64,000 nt of DNA from Karstenula rhodostoma CBS 690.94. Lineage: Eukaryota; Ascomycota; Dothideomycetes; Pleosporales; Didymosphaeriaceae. Where the stretch lies: assembly GCA_010093485.1 (NCBI GenBank), contig MU001501.1, positions 1,865,312-1,929,311 of the forward strand, given 5' to 3'. Made by a program: the position numbers and the translations under genes. Position 1 is the stretch's first letter; each line of letters begins with the position of its first letter. Under the pieces are notes generated by a model. It did not search any database. It saw nothing but the letters and a program-made list of their open reading frames with translations, and was not told the origin of the DNA. Shown here piece by piece: positions 40,936-64,000 of this stretch.

Positions 40936-43900
40936 TTACTAAAATATACTAAGATCTTATATAATACCTAGATCCTAAAATAAAAAAAAAAAATCTTTAT
41001 TTATATAAAACTATATTATATTCTATAGACTTCTTATATTTAATACTATTTAATATTATTCTATAGTAATAGATATAATATAGAATTAGTTTATATAAAA
41101 ATAGGGCCTATATAATAATTCTAATATAAAAAAGTACTATATTATAATATTTTATTTTATTTTATAGAATACTAAATTAGTTTCTAGAAATATCCTATAT
41201 TTAATATTATTTAATATAATTCTATAGTAATTTATATATTATATAATATATAAAAGGCTAATTAAATTAAGAATATAATATAAATAATAATACTTAATCT
41301 ATTTTTATCTATATTAAGTTATATAATAGTATTATAGCCTAATAAAGACTATTATATTTTACTAATAACTTATTTTTATATTTAGTATATTATTATATTA
41401 CTCTTAGCCTTAATTAAGAGTATCCTATTATTATTTATAATAAATAAAGTAAGGAAGTAAACTATTATAGTAGAGCTTCTATATAGCCGGCTAAACCTTA
41501 GGGCTATATATTACCTAATTAGAATAGAGGATTTTAGACTTCCTATTAGCTAAAAAAAGGCATTTTATATATTCTAATTAGTCCTTAAAACGCGATATAA
41601 TAATATTTCCCTAAATATTAATATAACTAATATATTATCTATAACTACTCTAGCTATAGAATATTAAACTTAGCTATATATTTCTAAATATTTATCTAGT
41701 ATATAATTCTTCTTTAGGTATTAGTCTAGCCTAATACTAACTAATACTTTAAAAACTAAAAACCTCTTTTTTAATTTAATTTAACTTTATCCTTTATCTA
41801 TCCTTTTACTATAACGCTATTATAATACTTAACTTTAATAATACTCCTAGTAGTTTTATACTATCTCCTTTATCTACCTTAATATCCTCTAAGATATTCT
41901 ATATCTATAGAATACTATCTATATCTTTTATTTCTATAGCGCTTCCTAATACCTTCTAATAGAGTAAAAGTCCTTCTAGTACTAAAGCGCCTATTATATA
42001 TAATATAGATATACTTATCTAGGATAATATTATAGCTATAATAGATAGAATAAAGTATAGATATCCCTTCTTATTATTATTTTAACTAATATTAATAGGG
42101 ATTTATAGGTATTATTATCCCCTAAATTTATCTATCCTAAAGTTATAATACTATATCCTTCTATATTAAAAAGTATACTATTATCCTATATATCTTTACT
42201 AGCTAACCTACTATATTCTACTATAGATACTATATAATACTCTCTTTATAATACCTTACTTCCTTATTAGTATACTTTTCTTAAGTACTATATAATTATT
42301 ATAGGATAGTATTAATAGTATAAGGAGTATTTTAATAATCCTAATTAGAAGTATATCCTCTTTTATAAGGTTCTAGAGCTCTAGAAATAGGCTAAGTGGC
42401 GCCTTTATAAGGCTAAGTAATTTAAGTCTATTATAGAAGATATTATTTTCCCCTTTTTCTAAGATTATATAGATAATAGTAAATAAAAGTATTTCCTCCT
42501 ATAATAGATTATATTTCTAAATTAGTATAAAATAAACTTTTAAAGTAGATTAGTTATACCCTACCTCTTTTTTTTTATATATATCCTTATCTAATACCTA
42601 GACTAATACCTACTTTATAGACGCGTTTTTATATTATACTACCTATTCTAGCTATATATTATCTCTCTATTAATTAGTAATAGTAGGCTAGAAATCTATA
42701 CTACTCTACTATAAATATAGTTATCTACTTAATCTAGTTTTTAATATCTTTATAAATAGAAAATTAAAGAAACGCTATATATATTATAGATAAAAATATT
42801 CTCTACTAACTCCTATTATACCTCTTTCTAAATACTATATTATTAATAGGCCTACTAATATTATAACTTAATTATATTCTATACCTTATACTCTATTATC
42901 TTTACTAAGTCTTTTATAACTCTTTACCCTAATAAGACTAACCCTATAAAAGTTATTTTAGAATAGTTATTATTTATTATATAAGGCCTATTAGATCCCT
43001 CTTCTAATATTCTCTTCTAAACTAAATATAATATAATTAATACTATATACTCCTTTACTATTATATATAGAGGATTTAGATATAAGATCTATTTAATTTA
43101 TAATAGTATAAATACCTATCTAGCCTACTCCTATATCCCTAGGTCTATAGATATTAGGTAAGGTATTAGACTTTACCTCCTCTAATAGTCCTGTACCTAA
43201 TTATAGTAATAAAAGTAGTAGGAATAAATTTAGTAGTAGGGACCTCTTTATAGAGGACTTTATAACTACTAAAGACTAAATATATTAGTAGAATTCTCCT
43301 ATTTAGTAATCTTTAGATCCTATAAACCTAGACTATCTATAGGAATCTATACTTCTACCTAAAAAATTAAACTATATATTAGTATTCTATTAGGAGCTTA
43401 AGAATATTTAGATAAGTATTTACTTTATTTATAATTACTAGTAGTTTAACCTCTATATTATCTAGAGAGAGTATAATAACTACTATTAGAATTAAATAAA
43501 GAATAATAGACTAGATTTTATTCTATTATATAGGAGTAGGAATAATATAGACTTAGGGCCTTTATCTTTATTATTACTACCTTTTATTAATATAGAAGAA
43601 TATCTACTTACTTAGATCTAAATTATTATAGAGATATATACTTATAGGGGGGCCTAATACTATTATTATAGCTATATCTATAACTTTACTATTAATATAG
43701 TAATACCTTTTTCTTAACTTCTATAGTTTCCTTAAGAGGTTAAGATTATTATCCTAAAGCCTGCCTAGACTAAGGGGGATAACCTAGATTAGATTAATTA
43801 CTAATTTAAAAAGGACTACTATATATATTATTCTATTATATAGTAGTGGCTTCTATTCCTAGTTACCTATTATTCTAGCTACTAAGATATTACTATTAAC

Positions 43901-44326
43901 TATAAGACTCTTATATCCCTTCTTATTAATAGTTTTATTAAATAGTAACTAGAGGTCCTTTATCTTAGTTCTAAAGACTCTAGTTCTAGTTAAATAACTA
44001 ATACTATACCTAATACCTCCTTTAGCTAGTAGTCTTATCCTTTAAATATAGGTAGTATACTACCTAGTACTACTTCTATATAAGGAGAAGGTAAGAGTAT
44101 ATATAGTAGTAATAAAGAGGCTAGTACTAAGGATAATATATATAAAAATAAGGATAAGCCTCTAGAGGTTTTAGTTATATCTAATTTAGATATAGCTACC
44201 CCTAAATTTAAATCTCTTTAGAACTAAATTTATTTTTATACTAGCTATATTTACCTCTCTATAGGAGCTATTTATCTAATATTAATTACTAAGTTTACTA
44301 GAAGTATTTATTACCTAAGTCTTATA

Positions 44327-47300
44327 TTCCCTTTACTATACTCTACTAGTATAGGTAATTATAATAAGCCTTATCTATAAGAAATTAATTTTATTATCTA
44401 TATATATTACCTTCTTTATTATAAAGATAGATATTTTACTCGCTATTCTTAATTTTAGTTTACTCTATTTAATATAATAATATAAAAGGTATCTATAATA
44501 TAGGCTAGTTTTATAGCTAGGTAAGGTATTAATAGTCTTCTATTATAGGCTAAGGATATTTAGGCTACCTTTTTAGGGCCTAATTAAGGAGTATTACTAA
44601 TTAACTCTATTATTTATATAGGTGCCTAGCTCTAGGGAATATAGCTATACTAGTAATAAGAAGGTAGGAAGCTTAATACTATAGTAAGTTATTATAACCT
44701 TAACTACCTAATACCTACCTAATACTTTCTAGATTAAGTAGTTAAAAAGCCCTACCTTATTTATTACTTTCTTTACTACTAATAATTTTTAGTATAATCT
44801 CCTCTGGTTTATACTATAATTTAAGGAGTAGTAGGTAGTAATCTCGAATATATAGAGGAGACTTACTTAGGACTTTCTAAAAGAATATTCTTATATTATA
44901 GCTTACTATTTCTATATTTAATTTATTATATTTAAAAAGTATATTCTTATCCCTCTTTTTAATATCTAGGACTTCTAGGATCGCTATAAATAGTAGGGGT
45001 ATAGGAGTACCTATAACTATAGGCTCTACTATATTAGTAATACTCTAGATCTAGACCTAGAATTAGACCCTTTAGCTATAGAGGCTAATATTAAATACCT
45101 GGCCTAATACTAGTCTAATACTATTTTAGTAACCTATTCTAAACTAATATAATCTAATAGTACTATTATTTTAATTAATACTATAATACTATTATTACTT
45201 CCTTTTATAGAAATAAAGTTTAATAACTAGAAACTATTATTAATTCTTACCTAGTATTATATATACTAATATATTTCTAATTACTATCTTTAGAAGAATA
45301 CTACTATAGGAGAGGAAACCTATAGATTTAGGGCTTCTTAGCCTACTTATTTATACCCTACTTTTATTATTCCCCCTAGGAAGCAATATAGACGCTTTAA
45401 ACCTATCTATAATTATATATAACTTAACCCTTTCTATCCTATATTAGTATTAGGCTAGAGGGCTAATACTAATATCTAAGTCTATACTAGTATAGCTAGT
45501 ATAGCTTAGTATATTAGTATATATACCTTAAAGGCTAAAAAATATACTATTTCCTATATAAACCTTATAGTATCTATTCTTCCCTACCTAAATAAAAATT
45601 ATACTCTTACTTTATTTATATCTAAGCTTATAAATAAAATAATTAGGGAAAGAGACTATTTAGTCTAAGAAGTTATATATATACTATTTAGCCTTCTACT
45701 TATATAGTCTATATAGGTTATAATAAATATTAATTACTAGCCTAAAAAAGTATAGTCTACTATATTCTTTTTTTATTAAGTCTAATAGATAAATAAGGAA
45801 GAGCTTAATTCTAATAGTACTTTATTCTAGAGTAGAAAGTTAATACTCTAGAGATATAAGGAACGCCTATCTATACTTAATAGCCTTTACTATATTAACT
45901 TCCTTCTATATTTTAATTATAAGAGTAAGATCCCCTCTAGGTAATCTAGGGCTAAACTATATATCCTATTCTATTATCTACAGTACTCTTTTATATTAGA
46001 TCTAGCCTACTTTTATTATATTAAGCTTATACTTTATTATCCCTTCTAGTATATAGACGATATTTATAACTTTTAGGGGTAGTTATTTAAGACTAATATT
46101 AAGGCCTATTACTATTATTATATATATTATACTTATAAGTATATTAATTATTATAGAGATAATCTTAATTAGGTAGAGGTAGAGGACCTAGAACTTAAAG
46201 AAATACCTATTTAAGACTAATTTAAGTTAGATAAGCTAGTAGCTCGAGGACCTACTATTAATAGTAAACTAGTTAACTAAGATATACTAGGGTCTAGGCC
46301 TATTAACTATACTAAGGACTAGGGTACTAAGAAATATAATAACTACTAGGACCTAAGTAGTTTAACCTACTAGAAGTAGTTAATCTAGGAGTATCCTATT
46401 ACTAGAGTAGAATAACCTAATACTAACCCTAATACTCTAGCTACTTAATAAAGGATTACCTTTAATATAGTAATAAATTATTTTAAGGTAATCCTTAGTA
46501 GGAGGGTATTACTATAGCTTCTTATTAATCTTAATAGGAAAGCTAGCACTGGTAAAACCTATATTATTAAAATAATTTTAACTTACTTTAATTAACTAGC
46601 TAAGGAAGTAGGTATACTATCTTCTATTATCTAATCTATACCTACTAGAGTTACTATATTTCTAATTAATAGCTAAATAATTAATAGCCTTTTCTAGATT
46701 CTAATTATATATATAGGAGGGATTATACTACTACTATCTACTACTACTCTATAGTAGTTATAGTTTACTTTCTCCTCTATATACTATCTTATTATTAATA
46801 AGAAGTCTATAGTTAGTCTTAATATACTAGCTTAGATTAATACCTAACTTAACGAGATCTATTCTTAATTTATATACCTCCCTTTTACTAGCTTAAATAT
46901 TATTATATCTAGAAACTTTTACTAGTTACTACCTATTACCTAGCGACCTTTATATAATCTATTACTAAGTAAAGGACCTATTAATACCTATATAAAGTAG
47001 CTCTACTAGTAATTCTTAAAGACTATTATTCTTAATACTATTTAACGCTAATAAGGAGATAGTAAGGCTAACTTTTAGAATACCCTCTTATAACTTTAAG
47101 TTAATAAAAGTACTTAGTAGGACTAGTTACTATTCTAAACTCGTTATAGGGCTATTCTTTTAGATTTAGAGATAGATACTTTTTATAATTCTATATACCT
47201 CTATACTAAGTGCTATAAGGTTAATATAATTAATTATAATTATTTTTAGAACTAATACTAGCTAGTATTAGCCTACTATACTAAATATAATAACTCTATA

Positions 47301-47700
47301 TATATAATAATACTATTAATAGAAGCTAGTAATCTAGAAAGTAAACTTCTTCTTTCTATTAGTACTAAAGTTATATTTCTAGCTAATATTTAGACTAAGT
47401 ATAGTCTTATTAATAGAGCTATTAGCGAGGTTAATAATATTATATAGTATCTAGCTACTATAGACTATATAAAGGAACCCCTTTTAATTATTCTTACTAC
47501 CTTTAATTAGTATATAGGGCCTAGTCTATATATTATAAAGGTAAGTAAGGTAACTATACCTATTTTCTCTATATCTCGCGAGTTCCTTTATAACTAGATA
47601 GTTATTATATAGGTCTAGTTTCCTTTCTACTTAGTATAGGCTATTATAGTATATAAGTCCTAAGGTCTTAGTCTTACTTTAGCTAGGATACTTATATCTA
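44327..47700 (+). mobile_element. RIP-mutated Helitron, Rep-helicase relic
   Basis: Helitrons are rolling-circle transposons encoding an HUH endonuclease fused to a Pif1 helicase. Reading through C-to-T and G-to-A changes, the order of domains is complete. The N-terminal Helitron domain (44327-44480) ends in a relic of GRFARHPRFRF. The Rep core starts PTLFITF (44751). The HUH motif, expected as RGSTHNHG, now reads R-S-T-Y-N-Y-R (TAT AAC TAT at 45012-45020), after a relic of DRYEWQ. The helicase P-loop reads KASTGKTYIIK (46539-46571). Next are relics of APTGVAAF (46638), IIDEKSM (46791-46811), RDFYQLPP (about 46914), GAKVMLLANIWT (about 47370) and AITVHKSQGL (47640). From 44748 to 47690 all motifs lie in one frame, so decay is by transitions, not indels. 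The element's ends were not found. Confidence 0.88.
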
Positions 47701-49570
47701 GAGAGAAGGACTTTATTACTAGTTTACTATATATTACCCTATTATATATATAGAGTATTAAAGGCTTTATATTTAAGACTTCTTTTTCTTTCTAGTATCT
47801 AAGGTCTAAAGATAGGAAATATATAAAGATAAAAAAGAAGAATAAATAATAGAGGTTAAATTAGTTATTTTTATATTTAGAGACTATCTTCTAACTATTA
47901 TAAGGCCTAATACCTTTTAGTATACCTAATACTATACCTTCTACTAATTTATTATTTAGTCCTTATCCTTAGTACTATAAAGTATATCTATAATCTAATC
48001 TATATTATTAGGTAGATTCTCCTTATTACTAAATACTATATCTAGAATATAAGTAGCCTTTTTATTAGTAAATCTACTTACTCTAAATATATAGTCCCTA
48101 ACTTATTAGTAATACCTAATACTATAGCTAATACTTTATTTATAAAGTAGAGTATAGTGTATACTTTTTATATAGACTAGGAAGTAATAGAGTAATACCC
48201 TCTTTATATATATTCTAGTATACTATATAGACTATAAATTAGTGGAAAAAACTAGTAAATTAGGTTATATAGAATAGACTAATAAGTACCCTCTCCTATT
48301 TAGACTATAGAATTATAAATAGTAGGTAAATAATTCTTAAAGTCTTATATATAGAGAGATATTATATAGCTAATAAGGTTACCTTATATAGTATATAGTA
48401 CTATATTAAATTAGTTAAGAATACTATAGTTTAAATAGGAACTTATCTTTATATTCTTTTAAGCTAATATCCTCTTTACTAGAATTAGATTCTAAACTTA
48501 TATATCTAATCTAGCTAGTATCTACTTAATCTATATTTAGTAGATATTAGTAAGGTATTAGTTTTAGAATACTTATATACTTATAAATAGGAGATCTTTA
48601 TCCTATAGGTTATTAAGAAAGGTTTTAAGACCCTGGTAAAAATAGTTCTATTTCTAGTATAGAGTTTTAAAGTATTTAGTAGTCTTATCCCTTATAATAA
48701 TCTAGGTATTAAGCGTAGCTATATTCTTAATACTAATTTTAGTATTAAAAACTTCTTACCTAAAGGCCTTCTAGTCTACTTTAACTTTTTCTTTCTTATT
48801 TCTCTCGAGAATAGTAGATAGGTTAAGTAATTACTAGTCTAAAGTCTTTAATAATAAGGCTCTAGTATTAGTTAAGGTATTAGGTAGTTAGGTAGATACT
48901 AGTATTATTAGAGTTAAAGTAGGGAAACTAGAGATATTAAAATACCGAACTTACTTCTTTATAAACTACTTAGCCTTAATTTTACTAATATTTTAACTAG
49001 TACGGGCTGCTATCTTATAGTACTAAGTAGTTCTAGTATTAAAGCTATTAAATATATTAGTATTTAATACTATTTAATACTTCTTTAACTTACTATATTA
49101 TATTATATATATTATTTAACTAGATATATAACTACTTTAGTATATTAGGCTAGTCTCTTATTAGTAGCTAATTAATAATTAGCTATATAGCTAGTAGGAA
49201 GGTATTCTTCTAGAACTTAGAGTAATATATATTATCTACTATTTTATCGCGCTCTATAGTAAGCTCTTTACTAGTCTTTTTTATTTAAGTAGCTATATTT
49301 TTCTTTATACTTTTATTTAAAAAGTACTCTCTAGTACCTTTATACTACTTAATATTAGGTAGGTCTACTATAGTAGAGGTATTAGGTAAGTATTAGGTAT
49401 AAAGTAATAGGTAGATATTAGGTATAGGATAAGTAACTATATAGTTCTATAATATAGAGTGTAGAAAAAAGGTAATAAAGGTAAATAGAAGAAGTTATTA
49501 ATAAATATTATAAGTAGACCTTATATAATTAAACCCTACTATTATATACCTATCTATTAAGTACTTATAT

Positions 49571-49916
49571 TATAAATACTAAGGCGCCTTTACTTACTTA
49601 AGTAAAGGTAAATACGCCTTATCTAAAAGTAGGAATATTCTATTACTTTTTTTACTATATAGACTAATACTATCTAATACCCTATATATACTTAAGATAG
49701 CTTAAATATATTAAGTTTTTATAAAGTTAGAATATATTTACTTTTTATTCTTACTATAAATACTAAGGCGCCTTTATAACTTACTTACTAAAGTAAAGGT
49801 AAATATATTTTACCTAAAAGTAGGAATATTCTATTGCTTTTTTTACTATATAGACTAATACTATCTAATACCCTATATATACTTATAATAGCTTAAATAG
49901 GTTAAGTTTTTATAAA
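49571..49916. repeat. Tandem pair, about 160-bp units
   Basis: Copies at 49571-49725 and 49755-49916 (period 184) share TATAAATACTAAGGCGCCTT at the start and TTAAGTTTTTATAAA at the end. They lie between the Helitron helicase and the H3-like relic. Confidence 0.85.
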
Positions 49917-50135
49917 TATAGAGCTCTTTTTCTAATTTATTATCTTTTACCTTTACTTTTTTCTAGTTTACTTTTACTTATATTATATATATATACTAAG
50001 TAAGCCTATTATATAATCTATATAAGTACTATAGTTTCTATTCTTTTACTCTCTCTCTTCTTTACCTTAACACTATAAACTATTAACCCTCTTTAATTAA
50101 TTCTACCTATAAATAATCTCTATAAATTTACTAGT

Positions 50136-50790
50136 ATAGTACCACGTAGAAAAATTAAGCCTTTATACCCTATTAGTGGTAAGGGTAAGGATAAGGCTAA
50201 GACTTAAGGTAAGTTAGATATTAGTTCTAAGTATTAGCCTTATACTTATATATTATAGCTAGTCTATCTAGTTATCTAATAGCTACTAAAACCCCTTATA
50301 AGACTACTACTTCTAGTTTACCTACTAAGGCTTAGTAATCTACTCTAATTACTAGTAGTATTAAGAAGCCTTACTACTATAAATTTAGTAGTAAGTATAG
50401 TACTAGTATTAGACTAGTATTAGGCTAATATTCTCTAGCTATAGCTCTTTATAAGATCTACTAATTCTAGAAGAATACTAACCTACTTATCCCTAAGCTA
50501 CTATTCTAGTGCCTAGTAAGGGAGGTAATTATTAATTATAGTATTTTCTACTCTACCTACTATACTCTTCCTAAGACTATTAATAAAGACCTAGTCTATA
50601 GCCTTTACTTCTAGTCTAGTACTATTATAGCTCTTTAAAAAGCCTCTAAGGCCTTTCTAGTTTATTTCTTTAAGTATAAGTACTAGTTTTAGTATTAGGC
50701 TCTATTATATTTATTAACTAAATTTAGATATACTACTAGCCTATATCTATACTAAACGTGTTACTATTATAAAGTATAATATCTAGTATA
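50136..50790 (+). pseudogene. Histone H3 / CENP-A-like gene relic, RIP-mutated
   Basis: In the frame of 50471 the text reads ALYKIY*F*KNTNLLIPKL, then LF*CLVREV. This is H3 (alpha-N and alpha-1: EIRRFQKSTDLLI-KLPFQRLVRE) with TAA/TAG for Gln, AAG for Glu, CTA for Pro and TGC for Arg. About 29 codons on comes F*SSTIIAL*KASKAFLVYFF, the counterpart of QSSAIMALQEASEAYLVGLF. After an intron-like 54 nt (50674-50727, GTATAAG..TTAACTAA..TTTAG), in another frame, DILLAYIYTKRVTIIKYNI (from 50727) matches DTNLCAIHAKRVTIMPKDI. A basic N terminus may start at ATA 50136 (VPRRKIKP). The loop before QSS is about 18 residues longer than in H3; CenH3 loops are also longer. A single-base frame offset remains across the putative intron. 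It cannot make a protein now. Confidence 0.78.
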
Positions 50791-51330
50791 TTTACTAATT
50801 TACTAGGGTAATTAGTCCTTACTAGAATATACTATTTTAGTTTACCTAGTGCTAGACTTATATATAAGTATTAGACTAGGTATTAGAACTAATACCTCTA
50901 TTTACTAATTATATTTTAGGGTACTTATATATAAAGAATAAAGTTTATAGTAGTAATAGGTTTTTATTAATTAGATTTTTAAGGAAAATACCGCTCTCTA
51001 GGGTTTAGTAGGTAATTCAGTACTACCTTAATAGTAGTATAATACTAGGTAAAATACCTCTTTAGTATAATTAGGTAGTTCTGGCCTATTTAGCCCTATT
51101 AACTATACTCTCTTAAATTCTTTTTTTTTCTATACTATAATTCTTATATAGTTACTATATACTTTCTCTTTTATCTTTATAGGTAATAAGGGTTCGTTAT
51201 AAATATACTAATTTAGTTTATATAGATTAGTAATATATTTTATAGATAGCTTTTAAGAAATTATATTAATTAAATAAGGGAAATTCTTAGTAATTACTAG
51301 AATAATATACCTTACTAGTTCTAATATCTA

Positions 51331-51810: not shown

Positions 51811-52198
51811 ATTATTAGATAGTATTTAATATTAAATTATATTATTTAATATTAACTAATAGATAGCTCTAAAAACCTCTTAGAATATTAAACTCTAGTT
51901 TTAACTATATATAAAGTAAAATTATACCTCTCTAACTTATACTACCCCTATAATATATAATCTTAGTAGGTATTTATAATAGTATTAATTCTAGTAGAAA
52001 CTACTAGTAAAATACTAGTTAGTATTATTAAATAGTATTTAATATTAAATTATATTATTTAATATTAATTAATAGGTAGCTCTAAAAACCTCTTAGAGTA
52101 TTAAACTCTAGTTTTAACTATATATAAAGTAGAATTATACCTCCCTAGCTTATACTATCTCTAAGATATATAATCTTAGTAGATATTTATAATAGTAA
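51811..52198. repeat. Tandem pair, about 174-bp units, period 213
   Basis: Copies at 51811-51984 and 52024-52198 share AGTATTTAATATTAAATTAT at the start and TATATAATCTTAGTAG near the end, separated by about 39 bases. Both are RIP-mutated, so duplication or transposition preceded mutation. Confidence 0.85.
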
Positions 52199-55182
52199 CT
52201 ATTTATTTAATAAGCTTATTAGATTCTTACCTACTATAAGGGAGGAGATAAGTATAAAACTATAAGTAATAAATAATAAAACTACTAAATATAGTAAATA
52301 GTAATTACCTTTAATTCTTATATAAATATCTACTTAATAAGTAATAGAACTATTAAGTATAATAAATAATAAGTCTTTATAGATATATATAAAATTATAA
52401 TTCTATAAAATACTAAGATATAGCTTTTCTATAATAATTTAGATAAGTTATAATCTATATATAAAATTATATACTATATAATTATATATAAAAAAAAAGA
52501 CTAGTTTATATAAATATATAGAATATAGTAGTATTTAATCCTATTTTCTAGTAATTAATATAATATTAGATTAGTTATAGATAAAACCTTAGATAATAAA
52601 TCTAAAATAAAATTATATTACTTATAACTAATTATTCTACTAGATTTTATATAAAATAAAACTATTTTATATTATACTATAGTATTTAATATTATTTAAT
52701 ATTATCCTCTAGTAATAGATATAATATTATATTAGTTCCTAATATATTTATAAATAGTAAGTCTAAAATAAAATAAAAAATACTTTTAGTTATTATATAT
52801 AATTATATTAAAAATAAGAATATATACTATTTATAGTTATTTAATATAATTATATATAAATTAATATAAAATTAGATTAGTAGAACTCTATATTTTTACC
52901 CTAAAGGAAAAAAAAAAAAAAAAATATTATTTTTAACTATTTTATTATACTTTATATAATATTTAATTAGTTTCTACTAATTTTTAGTATTTAATTCTAC
53001 CTTCTTAGCTTTTTCTATAGGGGTAGTAGGGGTATTATTAATAGTACTATTCTATATAGTATACTTCTTACTTTTTTTAAATATATTTAATATTATTTAA
53101 TAATATTTAAAGTAAACTAGAATTAAATAATAGTAGATAGTAAAATACTATATTTAGTACTTATAAAATAAAGTAAAATAGTATAACTATTAAAGGGTTA
53201 AGACTTATACTTAATTTATTATACTACTAGTATCTATCTTTTTATTATTATTATCTTAATCTAATAGATATAGAGTATTATTAGATAATTTACCTAGAAA
53301 AATAATATTATTTAAGTTAAGGTCTTACTAGTTATATCTTATTATAGTAGTCCTTATTATATTAAGGCTATTAAAGACTATTTTCTAAAAAATCCTTTTA
53401 CCCTTATAAAGAATAGGTACTTTCTACTCCCTTTTATATATAGTTAGAGAAGGTATTAATTAAATCTATAATAATTCTAGTAGTACTATAATTTAGTAAT
53501 AGTTTAAATATATACCTTAATTTTATATTAATATTATTTAAATATTATTATATCTATTTATAGATCTCTAGTACTATTACTATTAAATAATAACTTATTA
53601 TTTAGATATAGTTATTTTTATTTATAGCGCTCTAGAGATATCTTTACTACTAGTATATATATAGCTAGAGATAATAGATATAGCTTTATTAGTACTTAAA
53701 AAGCTAGCTACTAATATAATAATATCTAGATTTTTAATAAATCCCTATATAGGTTACTTTAATAAGCTTAATATTATCTAGATTTTCTAATTAAAAAATA
53801 ATACTAAATAGATTATAGAATAATAAATTAAGAAGTATTAGAACTAATAAATATATAAATATAATATTAAAACTAAAATTTACTATTAGGGTTTAGTCTA
53901 GACTAAAAGTTAAAACTTAATTCTAAATAAATATTATTATATTTTCTAGTAGATATATAAGAGCTAACTAGACTTAGTAAATAATTTTTTTAAATTACTC
54001 TAGAGAGCTATATATAATAAAGGGGACTTTTAAAATATTAAAATTTAGTTTTTACCTTAGAAATTTTTATACTTTAAACTATATTTTTATATTTATAGCT
54101 TAGTTATAAGGTAATATAAGTATACTAGCTAATTTATAAATTACTAATATATACTAACTTAATAAAAACTATATTTAATTAGTATCTAATTATTTCTATA
54201 GTAAGATTTACTATAACTTATAGTAAATAATATCTATAAGTACTACTAGTATAAGGTATATAAATATAAGAGGTAATTTTACTATTTATAAATAATTTAT
54301 TAAATAATTATTCTTCTAAAATCTTATACTTAAATAGTATAAATAAATATCTTTTATATATATATACTAATAGAATTATATTATTAGACTACTAAATAGC
54401 TAGTAATTCTAAAGACTAAACTAAGCTATAAGTATTCTATATAAAATAAATTAATTATACTATAGTATATATAATACTATTACTAAATTTAACTTATAAT
54501 TTATAAAAAAAATAGTAGTATTAGAACTTAGTTATAGAAACTATAGTTATTTTAGTTACTACTATTAACTCTATTTAACCCTAAGTAGAATACTAACTTA
54601 TAGAGAATAATACTATTTAATACTATTTTATATTATTTAAGGTTAGCTAATATAAAATAATATTAGATTATATAAAACTCTATATAATAGCCCTATATTA
54701 TATATTATCTAATTTTAAAATATTAATAAAAATATTTTTATTAATTAAGCTATACTCCTTATTATTTCTTAGTAGTTACCCTACCTTCTCTATATACTAG
54801 ATATTAAGATTCCTTATTAAGTAGTCTAGAATCTAGGTAAAGAAATTAGTAATAATATTAATAAAATACTTTAGGCCTATACTACCTCTATATCTAGAAC
54901 TAAGTAGTTTCTAGTAAATTTTAGTAGTTTTACTAGTTTTATAAGTATTAAGTCTTAGCTTTATCTATATATAATATTAAATATAGAGTAGAATTATACC
55001 TTCCCTAAAATATATAATTTTTATAAATATTTTATCTTTAGCTCTAATTCTAGTATAAACTACTAGCTAATTTATAAAAAGATAGATCTACTATTTATAT
55101 TAATAGTATTTAAATAATATAATTTAGGCCTTATTATACTAACTTATAGAAATAAATACTATTTACTATTAAATAATATCTT

Positions 55183-55463
55183 ATTCTAAAATAAAAGAAA
55201 ATTACTTTAGACTATTTTATTTCTATTTATATAAAATCTAAATAGACTATATAATCTAATAGAATTTAATACTATTTAGTAGTATTTTTTAATAACTACT
55301 ATAACTTAGGTTAAATTTATAGGGTATTTAGTAGAGTAATTCTAAAGTAAAAGAAAATTACTTTAGACTATTTTACTCCTATTTACACGAAATCTAAGTA
55401 GGCTATATAATCTAATAGTATATAATACTATTTAAAAGTATTTCTTAATAACTTTTATAAACT
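55183..55463. repeat. Tandem pair, period 156
   Basis: Copies from 55183 and 55339 share AAAGAAAATTACTTTAGACT and AGTATTT..TTAATAAC. The second copy keeps more C and G (TTTACACGAAATC), so the copies were mutated to different extents. Confidence 0.85.
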
Positions 55464-55905
55464 AGATTAAAAAATATTATACTACTATTAGTTTTAATTA
55501 AAAGTACTTTAGAGAAAATAAATAAATTCTAGTTAATATAATCTAGATTATTAAGCTTATTACTAAGGTTCCTATTATAATCTAATTAAAATAATTAGAT
55601 TATATATATAGTATATTATACTACTAGAATAGTTAAACTATATTTTCTAATATATCTCTACTAATTAAGTAATATCCTAGACCTTTAATAGTATAATAGT
55701 TATTTAAGAGAAAGATAAATAACCTACTATATTTAAATATATATTTAAATTTAGTATTACTAAATTAGTATACTTACTAGATTTATCTAAAAAATAAAAT
55801 ATTAAGTTTATAATCTAATTTATAAATTATCTATATTTACTCTAGTTTATACCTATAATAATACTATTATATTATCTCCCTTATTAATATTATTATTTCT
55901 ATATT

Positions 55906-55932
55906 TTATTATTATTATTATTATTATTATTA
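55906..55932. repeat. TTA microsatellite
   Basis: Nine perfect TTA units inside the AT-rich island. Confidence 0.95.
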
Positions 55933-58900
55933 TACTATTTATCTATAAACCCTATATTATATTCTTTTAAATCTACTTTTATATTCTAACTATATACTAT
56001 TTTACTACTATTTTTCTAGCTACTATATATAGTTAGTATCTATACTTATAAAATTAGTAGAAAAATTTATAAAAAAAAGTTAATAGGGTTTATTTTATTT
56101 CTATCTCTAAGCTCTAATAAGAATATAAAACTAGAAGATATTTATATTTATTTTATATATACTAGAAATAATATTTTTATTCTTTATAATAATACTATAA
56201 TATCTCTATTATAATCCCTTATAAGCTTAGCCTATTAACTAATTAACTTCTATATTAATTACTTCTTAATCTACTTATTAGATATATATTCCCTAGATAT
56301 TAAAATAAAAATACTAACTAAACTAAATATTATTTTAATTATATTCTACTTTACTTTTTAGTTTAATATATTTCTAAATATTCTTTATATATCCTTATTA
56401 TAACTTTTATTAGATATCCTTTTAAGGTTTTTAGTAAAGATAATTTTAAATAGTACCTTTTTTATAATATTTCTATAGTTCCTTTTATATACTCTAGTCT
56501 CTTACTTCTAACTATAAAATCTTTTTATTAATCTAATAAAGTACTTATATAACTAATCTAGTATCTACTATTAGTATATAAATTTAGTAATACTATTTAT
56601 TTATATTTTCTATATATTAAAAAACTAAAATTAAAAATTAAATATCTTATTATTTAATAGAATATTCTACTATTACTTTTTATTAATACTATTTATTAGA
56701 GTACTAGGGGATATATTCTAGTAGTAGGATAAAGCTAATATAGAATTTAATACTCTACTTTAAAATAAAATATCCTTATTTACTAGAATTTTAAATAACT
56801 TTCTTTTATAGTAATATTATCGCGCCTATATAAGTCTAATTATTTACTAATTATAGAAGGTATCTATAGATCTAATTACTATATCTTTACTAATAAACTT
56901 AATAACTATATTAATTCTAATACTAGACTATTTATAGTAATAGGATTTATACTAATATTTTTTATTTAATTTACTATTAGATACCTCTATATACTTCTAG
57001 TTCTATAAATTTATAATAGTATTAATTAGACTATAATTTAAATTATTAACTAGTGCCTTATTTATAACTAGTATATCCTTTTTAGTAGTATACTTCCTCT
57101 TTCTCTATAGTATTATAGAGTATCCCTTAATTATCTTAAATTATTATTCTTATTATTATTAGCTAAGCTTATCTCCTTTCTATTCCCTCTTTTTTTTAAA
57201 TTATTTATTACTATTATTTTTTTATATCTATTTATCTTCTAGTCTAGTTATATCTTTATTCTATTAATCTAGATTTTAATATATTATATTAACTATTTTC
57301 TTTATTTTAGTTTTAGAAATATTAGTAATTATCTAATATAGTATATTTTTTAATATTTATATAACTAATATACTTATCTAGCTAAAGCTATCCTTTTCTA
57401 TAATATATATATATAAATATATATTCTAGATTTTATTATATATTACTAGTATAATATTATATTTATTACTTAACTCCCTATTTATTACCTCTACTAGCTA
57501 TAGCTATAAGAGGCTAGTAAGGGTATAAAGAGAAACTATAATAATAGTTAAATTTAAAAAATAGTTATAGTTATAGTTAGGAGTATAAAAAAAAAGGTAG
57601 TAAAAAAAAAAGAATATAAGCTTCTAAAGGAAAGAAAAAACTAGCCCCTAAACTATATAAAATTACTAAGTTAATTTTAATTCTATAGTTAAATCTAAAT
57701 CTTCCTTAATATAACTACCCCTCTAATCTAACTATAATTTCTAGAATATTTTCTATTAATTTTAGAATTTTTATTAATTTTTATCTTTCTCTATTATTAT
57801 AAGTATTAACTATTCTATATTATATAAAACCTTATTTATATTAATATAAAATATAGTTTTATTATTTATATATACTATTACTATTATATCCTTCTATTAG
57901 ATATTAAATTATATTTTAGATTTAAAATCTATAAGAATATATCTATTTAGTAATATAAAGAGGTATAGAAACTTATAAATAATAAATATATATAGCTCTA
58001 TTTATTATAGAATAATATAATTTAGTTAATTATTTTATTTACTACTTTTCCTATAGCTATTAGTAATATAGTATTATTAATACTAAGTCTTAAGTATAAT
58101 ACCTATAGAATAATATTTAGGGGGGAGATAATAAATATAATTAAAAATATAAAAAACTACCTCTATATAATATATAGGGTTAGAAGTTATAACTTTAATA
58201 TAAATATTTATACTACTACTATTAATATATAAATAATCTATTATTAGGCTATATTTTTATAATATCTCTAACTAAATAGATAAGGATTATAATATTTTAA
58301 AGTATAATACCCTATACTTTAATTCTATATATCTCCCTTAGTAATATATATTAAAAATAAAGAGGAAGGCTAGTTTATAAAAATAGATATAGAGATAAAT
58401 ATAGAGAAGGAAAAGAAAAACTAATATATACTATATACTATAACTATTATTTACTATACTATAATAGATTAGTTTATATTATAGATTAATTAAGTATAAA
58501 AGAAACTAAATAAGAATATTATTTATTAGTATAATAAGGTATTATCTATTATTAAGTATATTATAAACCCCTTTCTTAAATATATAAAATTCTATAAAGT
58601 TATTAGTAATATAGAGTAGAATATAGTATAGAATTATATATATTTAGCTATCTAAATATATCTAAGGCTTACTCTTCTATAGAGTACTATAAAAAGTATA
58701 TTTTAGATTTAATAGAATATAGTTATATATAGTATCTCCTACTAGACCTATATATAGGTTATATAGGAATATCTAAACTATATATCTATAATACCCCTTA
58801 TATATTACTAAGACTTTTTAGACTATTATTATAATATAATATTATCTATATTTACTTTTTTTTATTAAGTATTTAAAGTAGGTCTAAACTATTTACTAAT

Positions 58901-60960
58901 ACTAAAAATATTAAAGATAATAGAAAAGGTATAAAAAGATATTTATATATATTTAATAAAAGTAAATAGCCCTATTACTATAACCTTAGCTATAACTTAT
59001 AATTACTAAACTCTAGCTCTTTTAGAATAAATATACTATAAGTTCTAGTTAATATTTATATAATAAACTACTAATAGAAATAATTTTAATCTAGTTATTA
59101 TAATAGTAATTATATTTATTACTCTAGACCTATAAAAGTTTAATTTTAAATAGATATATAACTTTATTATAGATATATCTATACTAAAGAAATACTACTA
59201 TTTTATAGTATATTAGTACTTTTAGAAAATAATTATAACGTGGCTAGAAGAGGGAGATAAAGAGAAGAAAGAAGGAGATAAAAAAAAAAAAAAGAGAAAT
59301 AAAAAAAAGGAAAAAAAAGATAAAAAGAAGAATATAAAAGCTATTATAGTAGCCCTAGCTATAGATAATAAAATAAATAATACTAGTTTAATAGTAAAAA
59401 AGACTATACTATTTAATAATACCTCTATTACTAATATAAAGATACTAGTTAATAAAGGAAATATTCTAATTATCTTATAGAACTATAGCTAAAAGGTTAA
59501 TTAGGAATTAAGGAATTTTATTTATATTTACTTTAGTACTAAATTCTATACCCCTATATTCTAGTTTATTACTATAAAATATTACCTTAGTACCTTTTAA
59601 TATAGGGATATAGTATAGAGTTTTATATAGTAAAATAATAATAATATTATTATTTATAATATTAAAATATTATTTAAAAAGTATAAGAATATAATATAGA
59701 TATTAGTTTAAAAGATAGAGATATTATTTATTAATATTATTAACTATAATAGTATTATATTCCTATTATTAATTCCCTAGAATAAGATACTATATAACTT
59801 AAGTATTTAAAATAAGAGTTACTCCCCTTTTAAGCTAAATAGCCTATTTTTTAATAAGTAGTAAAACTATATAATTAAATAGGCCTTTACTACTATTAAT
59901 ACTAGTAAAGTAAAAATAATATCTAATAATCTAAATAACTATATTAGTATAGATAAGTATAGTATAAAAATAGGTATCTTTTTAATATCTATTATTTCTT
60001 TCTCTCTTAACTTACTTATTATAGATATAAGTCTTCCTTAATACTATTTTTCTATTTATTTACTTTACTAGTAGATAGCCTATATATTTAATAGAGTTAC
60101 TAAATATTATATATAAAAACTTATTTACTAATAATATTAGTAATCTATTTTTATTTCTAGACTTTATTATAATTATACCTTACTACTATAAGGGTTATAA
60201 TAAAAATAAGACTATCTATATAATATATTATTATTTTTTATAATATATTAACTCTCTTTTTATTTAGTATATATAGCTTATTTATCTATTCTACTAGTTT
60301 ATTACTATAATTATATTTACTAATAGTCTAGTAGTATTATATTACTATTATATATATAGCTATTATTTCTAGAGTAATAAAATAGAATATAGGTAAAAGA
60401 ATAGTTAATAATTTACTATATTTTTTAACTATATAATATAATAGATTATAGGGCTAAATATTAATATATTAATACTCTAGTATCTAATAATTACCTTTTA
60501 ATATTAGTAGAATAAGGAGGTATCTCTATTCTATAGTAAAAAGATACTAATAGAAAAATAAATAAAAATAACCTAAAAAAAAAAGTATAATAAAAACTAT
60601 AAAATATAAATAAAATATATACCTACTATTATAATAGTAGTATATATTAAAGAGATATAGTATATTTTTATATAAATATTTAACTATAATTAATCTAATA
60701 TCTATATATATATCTTTTATAAATAGTATAATTACTTTAACTTTAATATAAATAACTTTAATATATAAGAAAATACTAAAGAAAAAAAGAAAAAAAGTAG
60801 TAATAGTAGTATAGACTAGCTAGTAGAATATATTACCTTATATAGCTTAGTAAATATATATAAACTATTTAGTAATAATACTTTTAAGGACTAAATACTA
60901 TAGCTAGAGAGTAAATAAATACTAGTTTTACTATTTAAAGGGATTAGTATAGTAGTCTAT

Positions 60961-61815
60961 ATTATATTTACTAGTACTAGTAAAATAAATAAATATCTAT
61001 TACTTATTATTACTCTAGAAAATAATTATAAATAAACTATAGTTATTACTCTATTTATTACTATATAGAATAATATTATAAGTAAGTATTATAAGCTAAA
61101 AATTTATATTAGTATATTTAGAATAAAATAGTTTTATAAATCTATATATATTATTATTACTATATTTAAATATATTAATATAAATATTTTTAAAAACTTT
61201 ATATACTAGTAGTATATAAATAATAAGCTAGAGTATTTAATACTAGATAAATATTACTATATTCTATTTCCTAATTACTAGTATTATAAAAATCTACTTA
61301 ACCTCTATACTCTAAACTAATTTAGTATACTAATATTTCTACTCTTAGCTACTATTCTATTTAACTAGTAAGTATAAATATATAGTATACTAGTATTTAA
61401 TAAGTATATAGAGGTTATATAGAAACCTACTATCTATCCTAATCTATTCTATTAAGCTATTAAACTAATAAAGAAATAGACTATAATATTAATAATAATA
61501 TTTTATATCTAGTATAAGCTATAGTAATACTATAAGATTATTATCTTTATTAGTAGTTATATAATCTATAAGGACCTCTATACTAATATAAGTAAATATA
61601 AAAAGTTATTTATATATTATAAAAAAATAATAATTAAAAAAAAGAAGGTAATATAGAATATATTTAATAAGTATAAGGAAGATATTATTTTTACTATAAA
61701 TATATTTACTACTAGGGCTAACCTTATTAATATAGATATAGTTATCTATTTTAGAATATTTAATAATAGTATTAACTAGAAATAAAAATCTAGATAGGTA
61801 GAATATAATAGAAAG
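60961..61815 (+). pseudogene. RecQ-type helicase relic, RIP-mutated
   Basis: Helicase motifs occur in one frame. Motif I reads FTSTSKINK (60967-60993), from FTGTGKTNK with Gly-to-Ser and Thr-to-Ile changes. Motif II reads LDKYY (61243-61257), from a D-E-C-H box, with GAA to AAA, TGT to TAT and CAC to TAC. A LLLATI stretch (motif III, TAT/SAT-like) follows about 40 codons on. Motif V/VI reads TRANLINIDIVIYF..K*KSR* (61711-61796), from TGANLVNVDTVIHFG..EQESGR. Motif I to VI spans about 270 codons, as in the RecQ core. Fungal RecQ-like genes of this kind are often the telomere-linked helicases or part of repeated elements. A lysine-rich purine tract near 59.2 kb could belong to its N-terminal region, but I could not trace the frame back that far. 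Confidence 0.75.
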
Positions 61816-64000
61816 CTAGCTATTATATATATTATATATAGTAATAATATATATATTTATATAAATAAGTTTAATAGTTATATAAAGTAAGTTATAAATA
61901 AAATAATATTTCTAAATTCTAATAAATCTATTTATATTTATATTATATTTAACTAATATTTTAATAGGTAAATAAACTATATTATATATAAATTTAAAAA
62001 GTTTCTATATAGTTTTTATACTCCTTTTATTTTAAGTATTCTATTATATAGGTTTAGAACTAATATACCTAATATATCCTTATTAGTCTAAATATTAATA
62101 CTAATTTTTCTTTTAATATATACCTTTTTATTTATATAAGTTATAACTCTTTTATAAGTTATACCCTTCTTTATATTAATACTTTTATTTACTTTTATTT
62201 TATTATTAGTATATATATATATAGTCTCTATTACTACCTCTTCTATTCTAAATAAATATAATAACCTACTTTATAGTAAATATATATAAGAATTTTTTTT
62301 TTTTCTTTTTTTTTTATATTATAGTACTACTAATATAGTAAATAGAACCTAGTTTTTCTTCTCTAGTACTTACCCCTACTAATATAAAAATAAAAGTAGT
62401 ATATATAATTTAAAAATATAAGGATATATATAATAGAGTAATCTAATATATTTATAATATAAAAAAAATACTTAAATAGATTTATTATATAGTTTATTTC
62501 TAGTATATAGATTTCTACTCTATATATTTTATAGTAGGCTAATTTTTTAATTATACTAAAGGGTTCTATAGAGGCCTACTATAGGGTAACTATATCTACT
62601 TACTATATAACTAAATAAATAATAAAGCCCTATTATATTATTATTATTTATACCTATTTTTACTATATTTATATAATTACTAGTAAGATAAAGATAGTAT
62701 ATTCTTTAATAGGTAAAATAATTATACTATATACTAATATTAATATATACTATAAAATTTCTAAATAGTACTCTAAATAGTATATAACCTTACTAAAATA
62801 TTATAACTAGAATATATATCCCTAGCTAATTATAATAAATTAAAAATAATAAATTTTATTATATACTTTTTATAATTTATATCTCTATATTTTTATAGTT
62901 ATATTAGTTAGATACTATTAGACCTATTATAGTTTTATAAAATCTACTTTTTATTAGACTTATAATAATAGCTACTAGTAGTAGAAAAGTAAAAATAGAT
63001 ATATAAATTTAAAATAAAAAGAAATAAAGACCTAACTTAACTAAAATTAAAACTAGATAGTAGTATATTTTAAATTTATAATAATACTAAAATATTTATT
63101 TATAAACCCCCTTTTATATATAGTATATATCTTTATATATACTAGTAAAAGAAAATAATTTAAACTATTAAAAATCTATTTATATAAAATACTATCTAGG
63201 TATAGAATTCTATATATAACTTTAAAACTAAGTAATATTCTATATAAAAGGCCTTTTATTAATAGGGGTATATTACCTTTACTATTAGGGTTAGTATTTC
63301 TTCTTTATTAGAGAGTAATTAATTTTTAGTAGGTAATAAATAAGGTCGTGTATATACTATTAAATATTTTAAGTACTAGAGAAAAAAGCTAATAGTAAGT
63401 TAGATTAAAGTTATAAAGAACTCTTAATACTTTAAAATTCTTAATTAAGTAGTAAATAGGGAGTATAAATAATATTTAATAGAGATAATATAAATTTTAT
63501 ATAATATAATAAAATATTTTATAGCTAAGTCTAGTAATAGTTTTATTTAAGAAATAAATAACTTTTTTTTAGGGATTTTTTTAATTAGTAGTAATAGTAG
63601 TCTATATACTTTCTATTATCTATTAAAATATTTATACTTTTACTTTATATACTAAAATTATTTATAAATTAATAGTTTTCTAGTTAGCTTATTATAATAG
63701 ATATTACTACTAGTTTAATAATATAATACTATTAATTAAAAATATAAATCCTTTCTATTTTAACTATAAGTAGAGTAAATATAATATAAAAATATACTAA
63801 GTTTTAGGGATAATAGAATTTATATTAGGTTTATAGTAATTATTTTAATAACTATAGAGTAATAAAAATATAGAAAAAAATAATATAAATTCTAGATTTA
63901 AATAACTACTTAGAATAGGTTTATAATATAGTATTCCCTTATATAATATATTATATATATATTAACTAGACTCTACTAATATAGTATATAAGCTAGTATA

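Follow-up and report, generated by a model that had tools for sequence, protein, structure and literature searches.

A decayed histone H3 gene and its structure

The stretch of Karstenula rhodostoma CBS 690.94 analysed here (64,000 nucleotides of contig MU001501.1, hereafter the window) ends in an AT-rich island of 25 kb that has been mutated by repeat-induced point mutation (RIP). Within this island, on the plus strand at 50136–50807, lies a decayed histone H3 gene, and the gene in turn lies inside a repeat of about 9.8 kb (9,816 bp, 41428–51243, plus strand) that has the appearance of a complete, RIP-decayed Helitron-like element. A preliminary description of the window had recognised three H3 blocks in order on the plus strand; we confirmed that the H3 gene is genuine and that more of H3 is kept than was first noted. 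When the window's own copy (50420–50690) was translated with stops written as X, phmmer matched it to histone H3 in PDB with E=6.3e-6. When the whole element and pieces of the window were scanned with Pfam, no family exceeded its cut-off, so that a less decayed copy was needed; after splicing by us, one such copy matched the Pfam Histone family (PF00125) with E=3.8e-13 and a score of 50.2 bits (cut-off 26.4), the sole other match in that scan being a weak one to DUF6570 (E=0.083). A profile made from six of 30 translated copies matched canonical H3 chains in PDB with E=4.1e-20, in two stretches split by a lengthened loop 1, and the homology spans nearly the whole protein with exon order kept. 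An NCBIfam scan gave no match, and pieces of the element from outside the H3 gene matched no histone; the whole-element frames missed even the H3 region, so long decayed readings are evidently insensitive.

The relic was also compared with H3 and the centromeric variant CenH3 (CENP-A) of the same genome in a RIP-aware alignment, in which each codon is represented by the residue sets reachable through C-to-T or G-to-A changes, taken from 30 copies with no repair. The alignment to host H3 (L001) scored 86.2, with 82 of 108 columns compatible, while two sets of 60 shuffled host H3 references reached maxima of 14.3 and 13.7. The remaining 26 columns are incompatible with host H3 even when RIP is allowed for; in the αN-α1 block 36 of the 40 columns are compatible. 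Both an H3-type tail and the αN-α1 sequence are present, the tail before residue 25 having been matched by eye alone. Weak matches are easily imagined in sequence of about 24% GC with an extreme dinucleotide bias, but the three E values, the distance of the alignment score from its shuffles, the ordered homology across exons and an intron at the position used by the host H3 gene leave a chance resemblance, with no histone behind it, practically out of consideration. Copies elsewhere in the genome and matches to H3, the two things on which the preliminary description had made its identification depend, were both obtained.

The exon at 50283–50390, recognised from translated copies and the RIP-aware alignment, encodes the tail of H3, in which the K36 region reads KKPHRYKP. 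It is followed by a 48-nt phase-1 intron with a GTAAGT donor (50391–50438) and by an exon for αN, α1, the lengthened loop 1 and α2 (50439–50675), supported by phmmer, the translated copies and the six-copy profile. The end of loop 2 and α3 are encoded at 50728–50807, where homology stops, at least approximately. Between these last two exons an intron is required to keep the frame; the preliminary description had proposed one of 54 nt, and an intron near the gene end does seem to be present, but it fits better as 52 nt (50676–50727), with a donor that we take to be mutated. At the other end, a possible first exon (50136–50208), beginning at the first position given in the preliminary description, would encode a basic, Gly/Lys-rich N-terminal extension; a GTAAGT donor follows at 50209, and joining across the candidate intron 50209–50282, of which we are less sure than of that at 50391–50438, restores the frame. 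The alternative start is at 50279, and the letter that would decide between it and 50136 has been lost to RIP, position 50281 being A in 30/30 copies. All of these features lie on the plus strand, and the gene contains no stop beyond what RIP can explain.

In all 30 translated copies loop 1, between α1 and α2, exceeds its counterpart in canonical H3 by about 18 residues, just as the preliminary description had claimed, and for this reason we regard the element's gene as an H3 variant rather than a canonical H3. No good intron able to remove the extra residues was found by eye: a hidden intron would have GTAGCT as its donor and, as far as could be seen, lack a YAG acceptor that keeps the phase, so this candidate was rejected and the insertion is more likely to be coding. 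Residue K27 is Q or R as aligned, while the K36 region is retained. The element's gene therefore resembles canonical host H3 in its fold, the KKPHRYKP tail region, the αN-α1 block and the phase-1 intron in the same Thr codon, and differs from it in the additional loop-1 residues, a rebuilt tail, the replacement at K27 and the putative extra intron near its end.

The preliminary description had offered, as one alternative, that a duplicated centromeric H3 decayed here. A long loop 1 and perhaps an extended tail are indeed CenH3-like traits, but host CenH3 scored only 53.2 in the RIP-aware alignment (68 of 98 columns compatible, shuffles at most 13.1), and among the 22 aligned columns that separate H3 from CenH3, nine fit H3 only, three CenH3 only, four both and six neither. 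The relic's tail has the H3 K36 region, and its 48-nt intron stands where host H3 carries a 53-nt phase-1 intron, in the Thr codon after KPG, a site through which host CenH3 reads without an intron. Host CenH3 itself is located elsewhere in the genome with readable exons. Tail, intron and score all point to canonical H3, and the sequence comparison thus supports derivation from it and not from CENP-A; on score and intron we reject a CenH3 origin, and consider it very improbable that a host CenH3 duplicate decayed in this repeat island.

The repeat, its copies and its Helitron-like features

The genome searched was the 44.3-Mb assembly, of 29 contigs, in which the window ends at the end of contig C10; its introns, its set of histones and its pattern of RIP are those of a fungus. 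A query of 49900–51300 gave at least 40 long matches of 87–100% identity (40 of 94 candidates were scored), and a protein search gave 94 matches, which manual merging reduced to 47 places, every one of them with stop codons. Thirty copies were aligned over 1,344 columns; some are cut at their ends, and internal gaps amount to four single bases in three copies. As many as 399 of the 413 variable columns show C/T or A/G only, so the copies must have been almost identical at the time of RIP. These results bear out the earlier proposal that an H3-type gene was multi-copy before it was mutated, and the search for further copies that had been suggested there found many, none of them intact. The limits of the element were set from its copies, since in each of the four upstream stretches retrieved the match to the window starts exactly at 41428, and 28 of the 30 copies for which flanks were at hand have their right end within 51242–51268. 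No relatives were found among viral contigs, and the flanks of the host H3 locus showed no similarity to the element at E≤1.

The depth of RIP is apparent from dinucleotide counts, CA+TG per kb dropping from 135.9 in window positions 1–39000 to 2.8 across the element and 0.3 at 52000–64000. This last region, with 16% GC, is nearly saturated with RIP, and by eye no telomere-type repeat is present in the last 400 bases of the window, at the contig end. One copy, L052 (G000:C6:77500-86100), is far less mutated than that in the window (21.5 against 2.8 CA+TG per kb), from which it follows that RIP exposure or age varies among the copies. The element illustrates a route by which a core-histone-type gene can become multi-copy and exposed to RIP.

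By its relics, namely a RepHel, characteristic ends and short derivatives, the repeat looks like a Helitron of the Helitron2-like type. In L052, Pfam models match Helitron_like_N (PF14214, E=0.0013, 19.5 bits, under the curated cut-off of 28.9) and PIF1 (PF05970, E=8.4e-5, also below its curated cut-off), and Pif1-type helicases in PDB are matched with E=1.2e-8. Rep lies 5' of the helicase in this copy. Mapped to the plus strand of the window, the putative Rep part (HUH-type, with an HUH-like motif seen by eye) occupies 44736–45008 and the Pif1-type helicase part 46230–47780, where the window copy itself is matched with E=6.9e-4. PF14214 found no match over the organism's own genome, a result that is uninformative because controls were equally silent.

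The 5' terminus (41428–41443, plus strand) is a short palindrome, TTATTAT..ATAATAA, and the 3' terminus (51209–51241, plus strand) ends in ATATATTTT; of the 28 copies readable at this point, 27 have A as the next base. Degenerate 33-base patterns of the two ends gave, at up to two mismatches, 76 matches for the 5' end and 62 for the 3' end, and the reversed controls gave none. In the 5' flank TNAT occurs in one of five copies. The best match for an asymmetric terminal inverted repeat is 9 bp, of A/T only and in AT-rich, RIP-blurred sequence, and no repeated flank indicating a target-site duplication was seen by eye in five copies with both flanks (the window and four others; empty sites were not compared).

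When 5' and 3' end patterns on the same strand were paired within 30 kb, 19 of the 76 five-prime ends found a partner at 9.6–10 kb, and all 19 of these full-length pairs contain H3. Beyond 10 kb there were 14 pairs with H3 and five without; none of the seven pairs under 4 kb, nor the single pair at 4–9.6 kb, contains it; and 30 five-prime ends had no three-prime end within 30 kb. By another route, starting from 40 left ends, H3 was found at 8–9.5 kb in 24, at 9.5–25 kb in ten, nearer in one and not at all in five. Copies, RepHel relics and end pairs together uphold the earlier view of an H3-type gene that travelled and multiplied on a mobile element, and they identify this element as the Helitron with its helicase a short way upstream of the gene. 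Two short copies, L053 (G000:C2:1741800-1744200) and L054 (G000:C11:877300-879830), join the first 1.8–2.1 kb of the element to its last 100 bp, with small inserts; they lack RepHel and H3 and keep both element ends. They are non-autonomous derivatives, which spread without a RepHel or H3 of their own.

Other observations concern the copies and the interior of the element. In the right flanks of L012 and L025 the 3' terminal stretch recurs in tandem with a 61-bp step, perhaps a trace of rolling-circle termination. Copies L016, L027, L029 and L037 are bordered by further parts of this element or by repeats that recur elsewhere in the window, which suggests nested insertions. Upstream of the H3 gene, at 49551–49922 on the plus strand, a tandem duplication with a step of about 184–191 bp is made up of 142-nt units (49590–49731 and 49781–49922) with 91% identity to each other and of 42-nt units located at 49551 and 49735, and may represent a promoter region.

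Probable capture of the gene and its possible role

Helitrons are known for picking up genes. The H3 gene is probably, if by no means securely, an accessory gene of an autonomous Helitron2-type transposon, that is, an intron-containing H3 variant that was captured as genomic DNA, diverged and was copied in a burst. Capture as genomic DNA is argued for by the intron position and phase common to the relic and host H3, and what the Helitron acquired would have been a canonical fungal H3 gene, introns included. The captured gene would then have diverged, with a longer loop 1, an altered and perhaps extended tail and replacement of K27, and, presumably intact and expressed during the burst, would have been copied along with the element until RIP afterwards killed the copies. 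Its product would have paired with host H4, entered nucleosomes on the element or its replicative intermediate and helped the element, for instance if the changed tail weakened silencing through K27 and made the intermediate's chromatin less usable by host silencing marks; it could also, as the preliminary description suggested, have influenced chromatin where the element inserted. More tentatively, and with rather more doubt than confidence, we suggest that the transposon-made variant, with its changed loop 1 and a tail without K27, may have served as a tool for packaging the element's DNA or shielding it from host silencing. If true, this would be a transposon counter-defence acting via the nucleosome itself.

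Transversions, which RIP cannot produce, were used to look for selection. Relative to host H3 they number 15, 17 and 25 at codon positions 1, 2 and 3 (108 codons). In the αN-α1 block (40 codons) 5 of the 80 sites at positions 1 and 2 carry one, compared with 10 of the 40 third positions (p=0.0066), which hints at selection on this block, with none visible elsewhere in the gene. Stop-codon polymorphism (4/12 in frame, 1/12 and 3/25 in the other frames; 6/18, 2/16 and 5/12 behind the gene) was uninformative. A number of points weigh against an accessory gene of an autonomous element. Outside the αN-α1 block transversions look neutral (27/136 against 15/68), and across all 108 codons the contrast between codon positions gives p=0.088; the block was picked after the data had been seen, and part of the position-3 count comes from the host branch. 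Stops at all 47 places mean that expression is not demonstrable from the copies, the spread of short derivatives without the gene implies that H3 is not needed in cis, and both RepHel matches in Pfam lie under their curated cut-offs.

A rival reading, which we think somewhat less likely than not, is that the H3 gene was taken up complete by the Helitron, perhaps through bypass of the 3' end, as a passenger whose product did nothing for the element. Gene capture by Helitrons, with end bypass adding 3' flanking DNA, is described in PMC5148889. The position of the gene between the helicase and the 3' end is what end bypass predicts, and the absence of codon-position constraint over most of the gene and the existence of short derivatives lacking it also fit a passenger; no older 3' end was recognisable upstream of H3 as a trace of such a bypass. 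A passenger is less easily reconciled with a frame that is open save for RIP-type stops although 26 of 108 columns have become incompatible with host H3, or with the retention of splice sites and of a conserved αN-α1 block. Given the post hoc choice of that block, the effect of the host branch and the overall p value, we rate the accessory-gene and passenger readings as not far apart.

Relation to known rolling-circle elements

A close parallel is the Helitron2 variant of Fusarium oxysporum represented by FoHeli1 and FoHeli2, which, as described in PMC5148889, share with the present element a 5' hairpin, a 3' ATATTTT followed by A, and a RepHel, but are about 5–6 kb long, compared with about 9.8 kb including an H3 gene here. 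The same paper places their target site between TNAT and A and reports RIP decay for F. solani copies (PMC5148889). Neither PMC5148889 nor PMC4289320 mentions ‘histone’ anywhere in its main text, and no H3-carrying Helitron was found among the papers that the literature searches listed, subscription papers and repeat databases being outside their scope. A mobile element with a nearly whole gene for a chromatin protein is an unusual case, and amplification of a nearly full-length H3 variant in an apparently autonomous Helitron makes it testable whether a transposon can counter chromatin silencing with its own histone.

Two further systems are described in PMC4067079, where captured genes that possibly serve the element are also discussed. 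Helentron-Cq-32A of Culex is likewise a rolling-circle transposon that has multiplied captured histone sequence, in eight copies; these are broken H4/H1 fragments, whereas in the element described here the H3 gene is nearly whole, has introns and shows no stop other than those explained by RIP (PMC4067079). A proto-Helentron of Phytophthora is a Helitron relative that likewise carries a chromatin-related gene, but this encodes a SET domain, an enzyme domain related to histone H3 methyltransferases and not a histone, and its host is an oomycete (PMC4067079).
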